Source of the DNA: Alcanivorax sp.
GTDB taxonomy: Bacteria; Pseudomonadota; Gammaproteobacteria; Pseudomonadales; Alcanivoracaceae
Assembly: GCA_022449455.1 (NCBI GenBank)
Contig: JAKUPL010000027.1
Location: forward strand, 1-56,873
Length of the DNA stretch: 56,873 bases
Direction: 5' to 3'
Shown here: piece after piece, positions 1,347-56,873 of the stretch
How the letters are laid out: every line of letters begins with the position of its first letter
How positions within the stretch are numbered: the stretch's first letter is position 1
Translations under genes and position numbers: made by a program
The notes under the pieces: generated by a model
Told to the model about the DNA's origin: nothing
Databases searched by the model: none
The model's input: the letters and a program-made list of their open reading frames with translations, nothing else

Positions 1347-1375
1347 TTGATTATTGCCCCTTCACTTGCTAGCTT
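1347..1375 (+). promoter_or_regulatory. Candidate sigma-70 promoter for the B12 operon
   Basis: TTGATT at 1347-1352 is followed after 17 nt by TAGCTT at 1370-1375. Transcription would start near 1382, just before the cobalamin riboswitch. The match to consensus is only moderate; position is the main support. Confidence 0.4.
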
Positions 1376-1385
1376 GCGCGCTCCT

Positions 1386-1568
1386 TACGGTGCCCCGCGA
1401 CGGCGGGGTTAAACGGGAAGTCGGTGACGCGCCCCTGCGCCAGCCCGACGCTGCCCCCGCAACGGTGATTGAGAACAAGGCCATCGGAGTCGCCACTGTG
1501 TACGTCACACGGGAAGGCGATGGCCCCGGGAATCCCTCCCTCTCATCAGCCCGGATACCGGCCGCGAG
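1386..1568 (+). promoter_or_regulatory. Cobalamin (AdoCbl) riboswitch upstream of btuB
   Basis: The stretch carries the conserved blocks of the cobalamin riboswitch in order: a GGGAAGTCGGTG block near 1414-1425, the GCTGCCCCCGCAACGGT core near 1450-1466, the B12-box GCCACTG at about 1492-1498, GGGAAGGCGATGG near 1511, and AGCCCGGATACCGGCC near 1549. It sits about 130 nt before btuB with no T-tract terminator following. The expression platform (1569-1699) is rich in C runs that could pair with the GGGG of the btuB ribosome-binding site near 1686, so control at translation is inferred. It should lower expression of the btuB operon when adenosylcobalamin is abundant. The rest of the 379-nt gap between cobC and btuB holds only the promoter and this leader. 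Confidence 0.93.
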
Positions 1569-1699
1569 GAGACAACCTGGCGTCGCGGAGGGCGACGGCG
1601 GCGTGATCCGGAGCCGCCCGGCCCCGCACTCCCCGCCCGCTCCCCCCGACAATCATTATCACGCCGTGCGGGTGAGCTCGGCGAAGGGGATCGTTTCGC

Positions 1700-7520: not shown

Positions 7521-8132
7521 ATGCGCGAAGACGCCAAAACCCCGCAACGCCACGCCGAACGCATGGCGAAAAAACAACGCATCATGCAGGAACGCATCGC
7601 CCGCGCCGACAAGGACCAAGGCGTGCTGCTGGTGCTCACCGGCCCCGGCAAGGGCAAGAGCAGCTCGGGCTTCGGCATGCTGGCCCGGGCCCTGGGCCAT
7701 GGCATGAAGGTGGGCGTGGTGCAGTTCATCAAGGGCGCCTTCAGCACCGGCGAGGAAGCCTTCTTCCGTGACCTGCCCAATGTGGATTACCACGTGATGG
7801 GCGAGGGCTACACCTGGGATACCCAGGACCGGGAGCGGGACGTGGCCGCCGCCGAGGCGGCCTGGGCGGTGGCCCGCCAGATGCTGCGCGACGACCGCTA
7901 CCATCTGGTGTTGCTGGACGAACTGAACATCGCCCTGCGCTACGAGTACCTGGACCGGGACACCGTGCTCGACGACCTGCAAAACCGCCCGCCCCTGCAA
8001 CACGCCGTGGTCACCGGCCGCTACGCGCCGAAAGAGCTGATCGAGCTGGCGGACACGGTCACGGAAATGAAAGTCGTCAAGCATGCGTTCAAGGATCAGG
8101 GCGTGCGCGCGCAGAAAGGCGTGGAATTGTAA
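7521..8132 (+). CDS. cobO: Corrinoid adenosyltransferase CobO/BtuR
   Basis: A 203-residue cytoplasmic enzyme that adds the 5'-deoxyadenosyl group from ATP to Co(I) corrinoids. It shows the family's charged N-terminus, the P-loop GPGKGKSSS near residues 40-48, VQFIKGAF, a LVLLDELNIAL block that acts like Walker B, and TGRYAPKELIELADTVTEM near the C-terminus. Length matches CobO/BtuR/CobA. An AGGAGA ribosome-binding site precedes the ATG 12 nt after cobB. It is the last gene before a 234-nt repeat-rich gap, so cobQ may be less tightly coupled. Confidence 0.94.
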   Translation: MREDAKTPQRHAERMAKKQRIMQERIARADKDQGVLLVLTGPGKGKSSSGFGMLARALGHGMKVGVVQFIKGAFSTGEEAFFRDLPNVDYHVMGEGYTWDTQDRERDVAAAEAAWAVARQMLRDDRYHLVLLDELNIALRYEYLDRDTVLDDLQNRPPLQHAVVTGRYAPKELIELADTVTEMKVVKHAFKDQGVRAQKGVEL

Positions 8133-8136
8133 GAGC

Positions 8137-8308
8137 AGTTGAAAGTTGAAAGTTAAAAGTTGAAACGCGGATCGGGGCGTTGCGGTCGGCACTGCCTTGC
8201 CCGCGCTTAAGGGTCACAGGGATGAACCGCACCGTTTGCACGGCCGTGTGGGCCGCGGGGCAGCCTTTCCGCCACGACCTTTTAACTTTTAACTTGTAAC
8301 TTTCAACT
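8137..8308. repeat. Heptamer-armed inverted repeat element, AGTTRAA family (element A1)
   Basis: The left arm at 8137-8164 is four tandem 7-nt units of the form AGTTGAA or AGTTAAA. The right arm at 8280-8308 is the same unit in reverse complement, also four units, one altered to AGTTACA. The 115-nt interior begins ACGCGG right after the left arm. The element lies between cobO and cobQ on the same strand. It could fold as a long hairpin in RNA from either strand. I do not recognise a named family. Confidence 0.8.
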
Positions 8309-16974: not shown

Positions 16975-17081
16975 ATTGTTCTCCCTTTGGCGACGCCTTT
17001 TCGATGGGCCTACCCTAACCGGGTCGGGGCGGGAAGAAAGCTGCTAAGCTGACCCGAAAATTGATCTTTCCGGCCAAAGCC

Positions 17082-18098
17082 ATGTCGCAACGCTCGATCC
17101 TCGCCCTGATGTACACCGTGGACCTGCTCCGCCAGCGCGGGGTGGATTGCGATGCGGTGCTGGCCCGCCACGGCCTGGACCCGGCGCGGCTGGACCCCAA
17201 CGGCGAGATCGAGCGCGACCGGGAGCTGGCGGTGCTGACCGCCCTGCTGCCCCTGGCCGGGGACCCGGCGTTCGGCTTCGAGATGGGCCAGCGCTTCGGA
17301 CTGGCCGGCTACGGCCCGCTGACCATGCTGCTGATGACCAGCCGCTCCGCCTTCGAGGGGTTTCAGTTGGGCGTGCGCTACCAGGCGCTGACCTATCTGT
17401 ACGGCGAATTGTCGCTGGTGCCCGGCGAGCAGGACACGGCGCTGATTCTCATGCCCATCGCCCTGCCGCCGGCGGTGCGGCGCATTCTGATCGACCGGGA
17501 CATGACCGGCACCTTCCGGCTGGTCAACGACCTGCAGACCCAGCTGGGGCTGGACCTGGCGCCCCGGGAGGTGTGGCTGCCCTATCCGCGCCCCCGGGAA
17601 ACCGGCTTTTACGAGGCGTACTTTCGCTGTCCGGTGAAGTTCGACCGGCCCTGGGCCCAGGCCAGCATCCGCAACCGTGATCTGGCCACGCCGCTGCCGT
17701 TCCATAACCAGGCGGCCCAGGACCTGTACCGCTCCCAGTGCGACGCCCTGCTGGCCCGCCGAACCGGCGCGGCGGAGGGCCTGGCGGAGCGGGTGGCCGC
17801 CTATCTGGATCTGTTTCTGGGGGATTTCCCGGACGCCGCCCGCGCCGCCGCCACCTTCGACCTGCCGGAGCGCAGCTTCCGCCGCCGTCTCGGCGCGGAA
17901 GGCCGCAGCTACCAGAGCCTTCTCGATCAGGTGCGCCTGCGCAAGGCCCGCGCTCTGCTGGCGGATTCGTCGTTGAGCATGGAGCGGATCGCCGACCGGC
18001 TCGGCTACAGCGAGCCGGCGGCCTTTATCCGCGCGTTCCGGCGCTGGACCGGGCTGACCCCGGCGAAGTACAAGAAGACGATTCAGGATACAGGATGA
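17082..18098 (+). CDS. AraC-family transcriptional regulator (OruR/ArgR-like N-terminal domain)
   Basis: 338 residues. The N-terminal 200 residues (LRQRGVDCDAVLARHGLD, FGLAGYGPLTMLLMTS, FRLVNDLQTQLGLDL) resemble the ligand-binding half of AraC regulators of the OruR type. The C-terminal DNA-binding domain has two helix-turn-helix units, SMERIADRLGYSEPAAFIRAF and GLTPAKYKKT. The ATG at 17082 is preferred over an upstream TTG at 17061. The final residues IQDTG and the stop codon are encoded by the first units of a heptamer repeat element, so the element has replaced the native end. It probably regulates the divergent monooxygenase. Confidence 0.85.
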   Translation: MSQRSILALMYTVDLLRQRGVDCDAVLARHGLDPARLDPNGEIERDRELAVLTALLPLAGDPAFGFEMGQRFGLAGYGPLTMLLMTSRSAFEGFQLGVRYQALTYLYGELSLVPGEQDTALILMPIALPPAVRRILIDRDMTGTFRLVNDLQTQLGLDLAPREVWLPYPRPRETGFYEAYFRCPVKFDRPWAQASIRNRDLATPLPFHNQAAQDLYRSQCDALLARRTGAAEGLAERVAAYLDLFLGDFPDAARAAATFDLPERSFRRRLGAEGRSYQSLLDQVRLRKARALLADSSLSMERIADRLGYSEPAAFIRAFRRWTGLTPAKYKKTIQDTG

Positions 18099-18149
18099 AG
18101 GATACAGGAGCGGGCATCCCTGTATCCTTCATCCTGTATCCTGCATCGG
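18079..18149. repeat. Heptamer-armed hairpin element, ATNCAGG family (element B1)
   Basis: The left arm at 18081-18108 is four 7-nt units (ATTCAGG, ATACAGG, ATGAAGG, ATACAGG). The right arm at 18119-18146 is their reverse complement with one mismatch in 28. The loop is only 10 nt and begins A-GCGGG. The outer ends read CGAT and ATCGG. Even the odd unit ATGAAGG is mirrored in the right arm. It lies between the convergent araC-type gene and hldE and encodes the end of the former. Confidence 0.85.
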
Positions 18150-18169
18150 CCGCGCAGCGGCCTTTTATT
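18148..18169 (+). terminator. Rho-independent terminator after the AraC-family gene
   Basis: GGCCGC (18148-18153), loop GCA, GCGGCC (18157-18162), then TTTTATT. It directly abuts the heptamer hairpin, and the T tract overlaps the stop codon of hldE on the other strand. Confidence 0.75.
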
Positions 18170-19595
18170 CTTCCCCGCGAATGCGCTGCACGATGTGGGT
18201 GGTGGAAATGTTCTCGGCGAAGTCGAGCACTTCCACCCGGCCACCATAGGCCTGCACGATGGGCGCGCCCACCACCTGGTCCACGGTGTAGTCGCCGCCT
18301 TTCACCAGCACGTCCGGCTTGATCTTCTCCAGCAGCGGCTCCGGCGTGTCGGTATCGAACGCCACCACGTAGTCCACCGCCTCCAGGGCCGCCAGCACCG
18401 CCATGCGCCGCTCCAGCGGGTTGATCGGCCGGCCCGGCCCTTTCAGCCGCTTCACCGATTCGTCGCTGTTGACCGCCAGCACCAGCCGGTCGCCCAGGCG
18501 GCGGGCGGAATCCAGGTAGCCCACGTGGCCGGCGTGGATGATGTCGAAGCAGCCGTTGGTGAACACGATGGTCTCGCCCTGGGCGCGGGCGTCCTCGATG
18601 GCCAGCAGCAGCTGTTCCTCGGTCATCGCGCCGCGACCCGGGCCGCCGGTCTGGTGCACCGCCCGGCGCAGTTCCGGGGCGCTGACCACGGCGGTGCCCA
18701 GCTTGCCGACCACGATGCCGGCGGCGATGTTGGCCAGCGCCACGGCGTCCTCCAGGGACGCGCCGGCGGCCAGCGCCACCGCCAGGGTGGAAATCACCGT
18801 GTCGCCGGCGCCGGTGACGTCGAACACCTCACGGGCATGGGTGGGCAGGTGGCGTTCCGGCTGGCCAGCGCGCAGCAGGGTCATGCCGCGCTCGCTGCGG
18901 GTCACCAGCAACGCCTCCAGGTCCAGCTCCGCCATCAGCGTCTGGCCTTTCTCCGCCAGGGTCTTCTCATCGGGCACCGGGCCCACCACCGCCTCGAACT
19001 CGGACAGATTGGGGGTCAGCAGGGTGGCGCCCCGGTAGCGCTCGAAGTCGCTGCCCTTGGGGTCCACCAGCACCGGCACGCCGGCCTCCCGGGCCAGCCG
19101 GATCAGCCCCGGGCAGTCACGCAAAGCACCCTTGGCGTAATCGGACAGCACCAGGGCGCCGCAGCCGCCCAGCCGGGCGCGTACCTTGTCGGCGAACGGC
19201 GCCGGGTCCTGGTCCTGGAACGACTCCTCGAAGTCCAGCCGCAGCAGCTGCTGCTGGCGGCTCACCACCCGCAGCTTGGTGATGGTGGGCAGGCCGGCCA
19301 CTTTCTGGAAATCGCAGGTCACGTCGGCGGCGCCCAGCCGCTCCTCGAGAATGCCCGCCGCCTCGTCCTCGCCGGTGACCCCCACCAGCTCGGCGCGGGC
19401 GCCCAGGGCGGCCATGTTCAGGGCCACGTTGGCGGCGCCGCCGGGGCGGTCCTCCAGATCGGTGACGCGCACCACCGGCACCGGCGCTTCCGGGGAAATG
19501 CGACCAGTGGGGCCGTGCCAGTAGCGGTCGAGCATGACGTCGCCCGCCACCAGCACCCGGGCCTGGCCGAACGGGGGAATCTCCAGGTTGGGCAT
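18165..19595 (-). CDS. hldE: Bifunctional heptose kinase/adenylyltransferase HldE (RfaE)
   Basis: 476 residues, the usual length. The N-terminal ribokinase-like half phosphorylates heptose-7-phosphate at C1 ([31 protein letters not shown], and [18 protein letters not shown] as the ATP/base motif). The C-terminal nucleotidyltransferase half (about 340 onward) has [19 protein letters not shown] and transfers AMP to make ADP-heptose for the LPS inner core. The frame is open 74 codons upstream, but the ATG at 19595 starts exactly at the family N-terminus and has GGAG before it. It faces the acyltransferase/ligase genes divergently and fits the LPS cluster. Confidence 0.95.
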
Positions 19596-35171: not shown

Positions 35172-35288
35172 CCGATACAGGATGCAGGATTCAGGATACA
35201 GGCGCGGGTGGACGCGACACGAGAGCGGAGGCCCAGCCCGCGCCCGAACGCCAGGGCCTTTTACCCTGCATCCTGAATCCTGTATCGG
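35172..35288. repeat. Heptamer-armed inverted repeat element, ATNCAGG family (element B2)
   Basis: The left arm at 35175-35202 is four units (ATACAGG, ATGCAGG, ATTCAGG, ATACAGG). The right arm at 35265-35285 is three units in reverse complement. Outer ends are CCGAT and ATCGG. The interior of about 62 nt starts C-GCGGG directly after the left arm. The outermost unit pairs perfectly; inner units pair with single mismatches at the variable third position. It sits between the GspE-like gene and glnE. Confidence 0.82.
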
Positions 35289-39279: not shown

Positions 39280-39437
39280 CCGATGCAGGGTTCAGGATGC
39301 AGGATACAGCGCGGGACAGTTTGTCGTAGCGGCCAGGCCGTACCCACGCTCAAGCCCGTGCGCGAGCACGGCGAGCAAATCCCCCTCTGCCTGATCCGCG
39401 CTGCATCCTGAATCCTGTATCCTGAACCCTGCATCCG
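39280..39437. repeat. Heptamer-armed inverted repeat element, ATNCAGG family (element B3)
   Basis: Left arm units at 39283-39310 are ATGCAGG, GTTCAGG, ATGCAGG, ATACAGC. The right arm at 39400-39434 has five reverse-complement units. The two outermost pairs match exactly, including the variant GTTCAGG opposite CCTGAAC, a paired change supporting the arms as partners. The interior of about 89 nt begins GCGGG. Outer ends are CCGAT and ATCCG. It lies between pit and argA. Confidence 0.82.
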
Positions 39438-56584: not shown

Positions 56585-56619
56585 AGTTGAAAGTTAAAAG
56601 TTAAAAGTTAAAAGTTGAA
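56585..56619. repeat. Left arm of an AGTTRAA heptamer element (element A2), interrupted
   Basis: Five tandem 7-nt units (AGTTGAA, three AGTTAAA, AGTTGAA), followed by ACGC as in element A1 (ACGCGG). At that point an IS3-type end begins, so the interior and right arm are missing from the window. Confidence 0.75.
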
Positions 56620-56623
56620 ACGC

Positions 56624-56873
56624 TGGACTGGCCCCAAAAAAGTAGACACCTTCATTGACGAGGAAGGTGTATGCAATATCGGAGCAAGCGTCGTTTCAGT
56701 AACGCGTTCAAACGCGAGGCCGTCGAGGCCTCGCTCTCCAGCCCGCAGACACAGGCACAGATCGCTGCCAAACTAGGGGTTCATCCTACCTTACTGAGCC
56801 GCTGGCGGCAGGAGTGGATTGTGGGTAAGTCATCCGCCAAGAAGCCGGTCCGAAATGCCGGCCCGACCAAGAG
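56624..56873 (+). mobile_element. IS3-family insertion sequence, left end (runs off the window)
   Basis: The terminal repeat begins TGGACTGGCCCCAAAAAAGT and fits the TG...CCCC-A-run-GT-GACA pattern of IS3-family ends. An orfA transposase starts 47 nt inside. Only the first 250 nt are present, so the right end and target duplication cannot be seen. Confidence 0.78.
56671..56873 (+). CDS. IS3-family transposase OrfA, N-terminal part
   Basis: 67 complete codons to the window edge. The protein begins MQYRSKRRFSNAFKREAVEA and continues with AQIAAKLGVHPTLLSRWRQE, the helix-turn-helix of IS3-type OrfA that binds the IS ends. GAGGAAGG lies just before the ATG. OrfB and the frameshift site expected between them lie beyond the window. 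Confidence 0.85.
   Translation, partial: MQYRSKRRFSNAFKREAVEASLSSPQTQAQIAAKLGVHPTLLSRWRQEWIVGKSSAKKPVRNAGPTK

Follow-up and report, generated by a model that had tools for sequence, protein, structure and literature searches.

We have identified in the genome of an Alcanivorax sp. a dispersed family of palindromes whose arms are tandem arrays of a GATNMAG heptamer. The hairpin at positions 18079-18148 of the window (the whole 56,873-nt stretch that was analysed, contig JAKUPL010000027.1 of assembly GCA_022449455.1) is probably one copy of this non-autonomous, REP-like element of the Alcanivorax/Alloalcanivorax group, which would be kept at mRNA 3' ends. The family is dispersed, has a fixed anatomy, is placed behind genes and turns over with replacement by other palindromes, and its short-loop copies descend from one common element. 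Heptamer repeats have been recorded in several bacterial lineages, with their origin and function unsettled. Among sister species of this genus, whose flanks are closely alike, a given gene junction can have nothing, a REP or any of several heptamer hairpins, so that both a role at mRNA 3' ends and a process imposing the 7-bp period can be tested within one genus.

A sequence-only reading of the window had described a near-perfect hairpin of heptamers with a GC terminator directly against it, and both features are real (Table 1). The stem has 30 bp with one mismatch, and each arm consists of four GATNMAG heptamers. Folding of 18079-18168 as RNA gave -61.4 kcal/mol, compared with -25.3 kcal/mol (sd 2.95) for 200 dinucleotide shuffles, none of which folded as well (z -12.2; 0/200). 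The hairpin fills a convergent gene gap between an araC-like gene (17061-18098, + strand) and hldE (18165-19595, - strand), the nearest named relatives of the latter being from Alcanivorax and Alloalcanivorax. The TGA stop codon of the araC-like gene (18096-18098) sits within the irregular unit, GATGAAG, which is indeed common to both arms in this copy. Within the family, the 27/28 arm match is unremarkable, being reached by 2 of 47 own pairs and 62 of 2162 cross pairs. The window copy is an odd family member and not the rule: both arms are of one type, and its loop is shorter than the loop of about 20 nt, with GGCACGGTGCC, of most short-loop copies. It may be a derivative whose loop was shortened and whose arms are both of the same type, which would account for its unusually perfect look.

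Table 1. Positions of heptamer elements and associated features (window coordinates unless a locus is named)
Feature	Position	Strand	Details
Left arm of the hairpin	18079-18108	+	C + GATTCAG GATACAG GATGAAG GATACAG + G
Loop of the hairpin	18109-18118	+	10 nt
Right arm of the hairpin	18119-18148	-	Inverted heptamers, one mismatch against the left arm
Terminator-like GC hairpin, then TTTT (18163-18166)	18148-18162	+	Adjoins the right arm
Second GATNMAG element	35173-35287		64-nt loop (unit scan); tandem-gene gap
Third GATNMAG element	39281-39437		91-nt loop; immediately follows a gene; missing in G002 and G011
AGTTRAA-class hairpin	8137-8308		Arms 8137-8165 and 8279-8308; follows a gene whose end is at 8132
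Single AGTTRAA arm	56585-56620	+	IS3-like insertion-sequence end about 10 nt on
IS3-like copy beside a heptamer arm, window	56585-56650		
IS3-like copy, L304	3250-4488		
IS3-like copy, L305	1961-3199		
IS3-like copy, L080	near 4126		

The genome from which the window was taken (4.22 Mb, 70 contigs) was scanned for three tandem units with at most two mismatches. This gave 205 matches (102 and 103 on the two strands), and the reversed control pattern gave none in the same scan. A covariance model built from 15 copies found at least 65 matches over both strands, or at least 33 sites, a lower bound since 150 of 1355 candidates were scored. The model matched 9 of 13 genus genomes, own genome included, with no match in G005-G008. 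Copies elsewhere, paired arms and common boundaries are the opposite of what had been named as grounds for abandoning a discrete element, so discreteness and dispersal were borne out. Wide spread of the unit was rejected, as three exact tandem CAGGATN units occurred only in the own genome among the 229 that made up a class sample. Plasmid or phage carriage was also rejected, one 78-nt copy having no match at E 0.01.

A unit scan of 35 own-genome regions plus the window located 50 array sites, 48 of which have two inverted arms and thus carry terminal inverted repeats, as MITEs do. Four units are present in 79 of 96 arms, and both arms have four at 34 of the 48 paired sites. Loops fall into groups of 11-27 nt (24 sites), 40-73 nt (8) and 91-116 nt (16). 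Many short loops have a GGCACGGTGCC-like core in common, nested GC palindromes around CGCGGGCACGGCC occupy many of the longer ones, and a TGCGTATTAGCA-like core occurs in three longer loops. Contig C12 duplicates the copy at C4:81606 and was dropped from the analyses of arm identity, ends and unit order; two unpaired sites were excluded from the pair tests. Over 94 ends, the copies have the boundaries CGAT...ATCG in common, with 1.16 bits of information at the first base beyond the last heptamer and at most 0.47 bits at the next 15 bases outside. One locus (L184, near 57822 of contig C19) has the left arm of a GATNMAG element but no right arm, and a GTAGGAGCG-type REP palindrome occupies the place of the missing remainder.

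The sequence-only reading had taken the matched irregular units to mean that the arms were copied or maintained together, which predicts that each arm matches its own partner best. This was not borne out for the family: over 47 copies, arm identity was 0.816 with own partners and 0.818 with shuffled ones (z -0.19). In the 23 short-loop copies, own-arm identity was below chance (0.812 vs 0.842, z -2.34), and the usual short-loop copy is asymmetric; in the 24 mid- and long-loop copies it was slightly above (0.820 vs 0.804, z 1.33; reached by 539 of 5000 shuffles). Unit order gave a different signal. Short-loop copies contained 84 pairs with identical arm haplotypes against 23.2 expected (0/2000 shuffles), and because this order is common to unlinked copies, they spread by copying from a common ancestor. 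Mid- and long-loop copies had no common unit order (12 pairs vs 10.2 expected, reached by 603 of 2000 shuffles).

These results bear on an origin in place, by which slippage would build a 7-bp array, template switching would invert it and the hairpin would be selected at gene ends, with no mobility. It would fit the slippage-prone nature of tandem heptamers, the presence of different heptamer classes at one junction in sister species and the missing unit order of mid- and long-loop copies. Unlinked short-loop copies nevertheless have both unit order and loop motif in common, most arms have four units and not a spread, and own arms match each other no better than strangers, so we regard this origin as unlikely. 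Under the favored reading of a dispersed REP-like palindrome, two inverted arms, usually of four 7-bp units (~30 bp), would enclose a variable core, and the short-loop copies would have spread via duplication of an asymmetric master, as the unit order common to them suggests. An enzyme would supply the mobility. Of the earlier description as a mobile element, copy spread and presence/absence among relatives make mobility likely; no mobiliser and no target-site duplication were found.

The family is extragenic as well as dispersed and lies mostly at gene 3' ends, as REPs do: 53 of 63 stop-side element ends lie 2-30 nt behind a stop codon. The 48 paired sites comprise 19 convergent, 25 tandem and 4 divergent gaps; in these regions, the gene pairs separated by 40 nt or more number 28 convergent, 105 tandem and 40 divergent, a background that includes the element-bearing gaps and rests on genes called by a simple codon model. 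Among the 94 element feet, a GC mini-hairpin occurs at 49, of which 10 also have a T-run; a direct T-run occurs at 18, and 27 have neither. A T-run, direct or behind a mini-hairpin, is thus present at 28 ends and absent from 66. Such T-runs were not commoner at sense exits (18/62) than at antisense exits (10/32), and a sense-strand terminator bias was therefore rejected over the 94 ends.

Plain bidirectional terminators, repetitive by chance, would explain the placement behind genes, the GC hairpin with TTTT beside the window copy and the 28 ends with T-runs. Terminators do not, however, have heptamer arms or loops that reach 116 nt, a relative compared at the finding site (G002, 94% identical over the query) has the terminator of 18148-18166 without the long hairpin, and relatives lack elements at the same gene ends; this explanation is very improbable. 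As a REP-like palindrome, the element would persist mostly just behind stop codons, its foot often bearing a GC mini-hairpin or T-run, and would be transcribed as a 3'-end hairpin that could terminate transcription coming from either side or stand in the way of 3' exonucleases.

Comparison of sites with and without the element, which had been proposed as a check, revealed both states among relatives. At the finding site, G002 has CGATGCAGGACGAAGAAT alone, probably an element remnant, before the terminator common to both genomes. At the same site, G003 carries a GTAGGAGCGG-type REP palindrome, G004 and G009 nested REP-like palindromes, G010 another palindrome, G005 and G008 an AGTTGAC-type heptamer hairpin and G007 a heptamer-like hairpin; no heptamer hairpin was seen in the stretches shown for G001, G011 and G012. 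Two further blocks were compared in seven relatives. At window 39281, the own genome has 193 nt where G002 has 3 nt between near-identical flanks, and G011 is also without the element; an ACACGCA-class element occurs in G012, CAAGCTN in G004, GACGCYR in G001, and REP-like palindromes in G003 and G010. At C4:91346, 103 nt in the own genome face 1 nt in G002, again with near-identical flanks; the site is empty in G010 and G011 as well, and it holds CAAGCTN-type hairpins in G003 and G004 and AAGTTNA in G001. One of six compared sites (C4:87577) is common to the own genome and G002. Four divergent spacers held no heptamer element except in G010 at one of them. The two cleanest empty sites displayed no target duplication, and the additional DNA extends beyond the element at either end.

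REP-associated RAYT genes were considered as mobilisers. There were 48 RAYT matches, in all 13 genus genomes, and no GATNMAG array was present in any of the 30 loci inspected, each with 1.5 kb of flank on either side. Outside those 30, the match G004:C77:39396 is separated by about 1.6 kb from a hit of the model (G004:C77:41249), and a RAYT role is conceivable. The GATNMAG ends, CGAT...ATCG, have no GTAG-type tag at the palindrome foot, and GTAG-type REPs are present in the genus as separate elements. Genes between far-apart arms were rejected as an autonomous element, both cases viewed being an IS3-like insertion in the loop. This IS3-like element (ends GGCCCCA...AAGTAGACACC) lay in or beside a heptamer-hairpin loop in 4 of 4 distinct copies, those of the window and L080 being visible on one side. 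IS1397 inserts into REP loops, and the IS3-like loop insertions resemble that.

The 7-bp period was surveyed in 40 stretches of 20 kb (800 kb) from 11 genus genomes that had not been selected for arrays. Period 7 accounted for 22 intergenic tandem arrays and every other period between 5 and 15 for 0-2; within genes, period 6 was the most frequent (10 arrays). All 22 came from 30 stretches of ten relatives, and the ten own-genome stretches (200 kb) held no period-7 array and nothing in a six-class unit scan. With the threshold slightly lowered, 24 arrays were obtained, of which 10 had a complementary partner no more than 260 nt away. When spacers were counted more strictly, 13 had period 7, two had period 9 and one had period 10. 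The period-7 spacers comprised 5 of 45 convergent, 7 of 250 tandem and 1 of 85 divergent spacers, the divergent one being an IS artefact (convergent vs divergent, P 0.019; tandem vs divergent, P 0.68). Long inverted repeats were present in 70 of 427 distinct spacers of 60-400 nt, and were heptamer-armed in 26, REPs in 23 and other in 21, with median arms of 25, 24 and 18 nt.

Arrays with three or more units were counted by class in genus loci, and in all six classes four units were more frequent than any other number: GATNCAG (90/109 arrays), AAGTTNA (37/53), CAAGCTN (11/28), AGTTGAC (11/19), GACGCYR (4/11) and CTGAACA (3/5). Inverted partners were found for 104/109, 45/53, 22/28, 8/19, 6/11 and 4/5, respectively, those of CTGAACA being counted in the outward sense because its unit is written from the other strand. 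Scrambled units gave a mean of 0 to 10.8 arrays in 200 loci. The array numbers are selected, as many loci were fetched for holding arrays, and the unit numbers above three are unselected.

Samples from beyond the genus gave no clear enrichment of period 7, with one array (inside an ORF) in 269 kb, one in 338 kb, none in 40 kb of G152 and two (at one locus) in 471 kb. In G152, a genome of the same class, reversed control units (TAGGACN) matched 13 times, which hints at an unrelated heptamer family; two 20-kb stretches held no TAGGACN-type array. Another class genome has a 104-nt intergenic array of AACYCGC-like heptamers (L379, 6493-6596). In Stutzerimonas stutzeri, two long perfect heptamer arrays (L108, 3981-4051 and 4205-4242) lie just downstream of hldE, the gene end that the window hairpin also occupies. 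Viral contigs held CAGGATN arrays in 18 stretches, compared with 6 for the reversed and 14 for the scrambled form, and CAAGCTN in 85 compared with 26 reversed. A special role for GATNMAG there was rejected, as heptamer arrays of many sequences occur in viral contigs. One viral contig (L391, near 1886) has a four-unit CAGGATN array with an inverted partner about 130 nt away.

In titles and abstracts on Alcanivorax, stem-loops and heptamer repeats, with subscription journals mostly uncovered, the GATNMAG family was not found described. The nearest published case, in the available text of PMC4692102, is the GGGAATC repeats of Xanthomonas, which have mostly four units, form 70 and 75 inverted pairs in two genomes, lie between genes at a mean of 28 nt behind the upstream ORF, are rarer between divergent than convergent ORFs and are not at the same genes across species. 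The preference for four units (79/96 arms), inverted pairing (48/50 sites) and placement behind genes (53/63 stop-side ends) are alike in GATNMAG. Unlike the repeats in that text, the GATNMAG unit has no G-quadruplex GGG tract, adjoining units giving GG at most, and several unrelated classes coexist in one genus and swap at orthologous junctions.

REPs and REPINs, as covered by the available part of PMC3733652, are likewise dispersed non-coding palindromes, mostly in convergent or tandem gaps, downstream of coding regions, and within the Alcanivorax-group genus arm lengths are similar. GATNMAG differs from those described there in having tandem heptamer arms, no GTAG tag and no flanking of the 30 inspected RAYT loci. 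The large stem-loops in the part of PMC1590033 consulted generally favor 3' ends of genes. The TAACTGA repeats of Beggiatoaceae, Cyanobacteria and Bacteroidetes resemble GATNMAG as intergenic tandem heptamers at high copy, but in the accessible sections of PMC4679880 they are direct repeats apart from one inverted case, and most lie a short way upstream of a start codon. In Geobacter metallireducens, the portion of PMC2700814 that was available lists 49 elements of four tandem heptamers (GGACCGG consensus) and five tandem MTYCTGA heptamers, drawn as looping pairs, at 15 of 16 class-3 sites. Unlike GATNMAG, these have other units, some lie inside genes, and the authors read them as regulator sites.

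Arrays of binding sites, with one DNA- or RNA-binding protein per heptamer and two arrays paired to form a loop, would agree with that Geobacter reading (PMC2700814, part), with the report of one CspB per heptamer in part of PMC4679880 and with four as the commonest unit number. Regulator sites would be expected between divergent genes, where the element is rare (4/48), and neighboring species have no element or other units at the same place; we consider such arrays a most doubtful explanation. It is conceivable, and we propose it only tentatively, that palindromes whose arms have four heptamers form a class of intergenic element general to bacteria, in which unrelated units are cast in one mould; period and arm length would be set by one process, for example a transposase or polymerase that moves in 7-nt steps. 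A 7-bp period, four units per arm, an inverted pair just behind the stop codon and the swapping of classes at junctions between sister species would all follow, and the separately reported heptamer elements of Xanthomonas and Geobacter would be explained as well.

A cobalamin riboswitch is present at window 1371-1580 (Rfam RF00174, 100 bits); it was the sole Rfam match in the window, and a known RNA family was thereby rejected for the hairpin.
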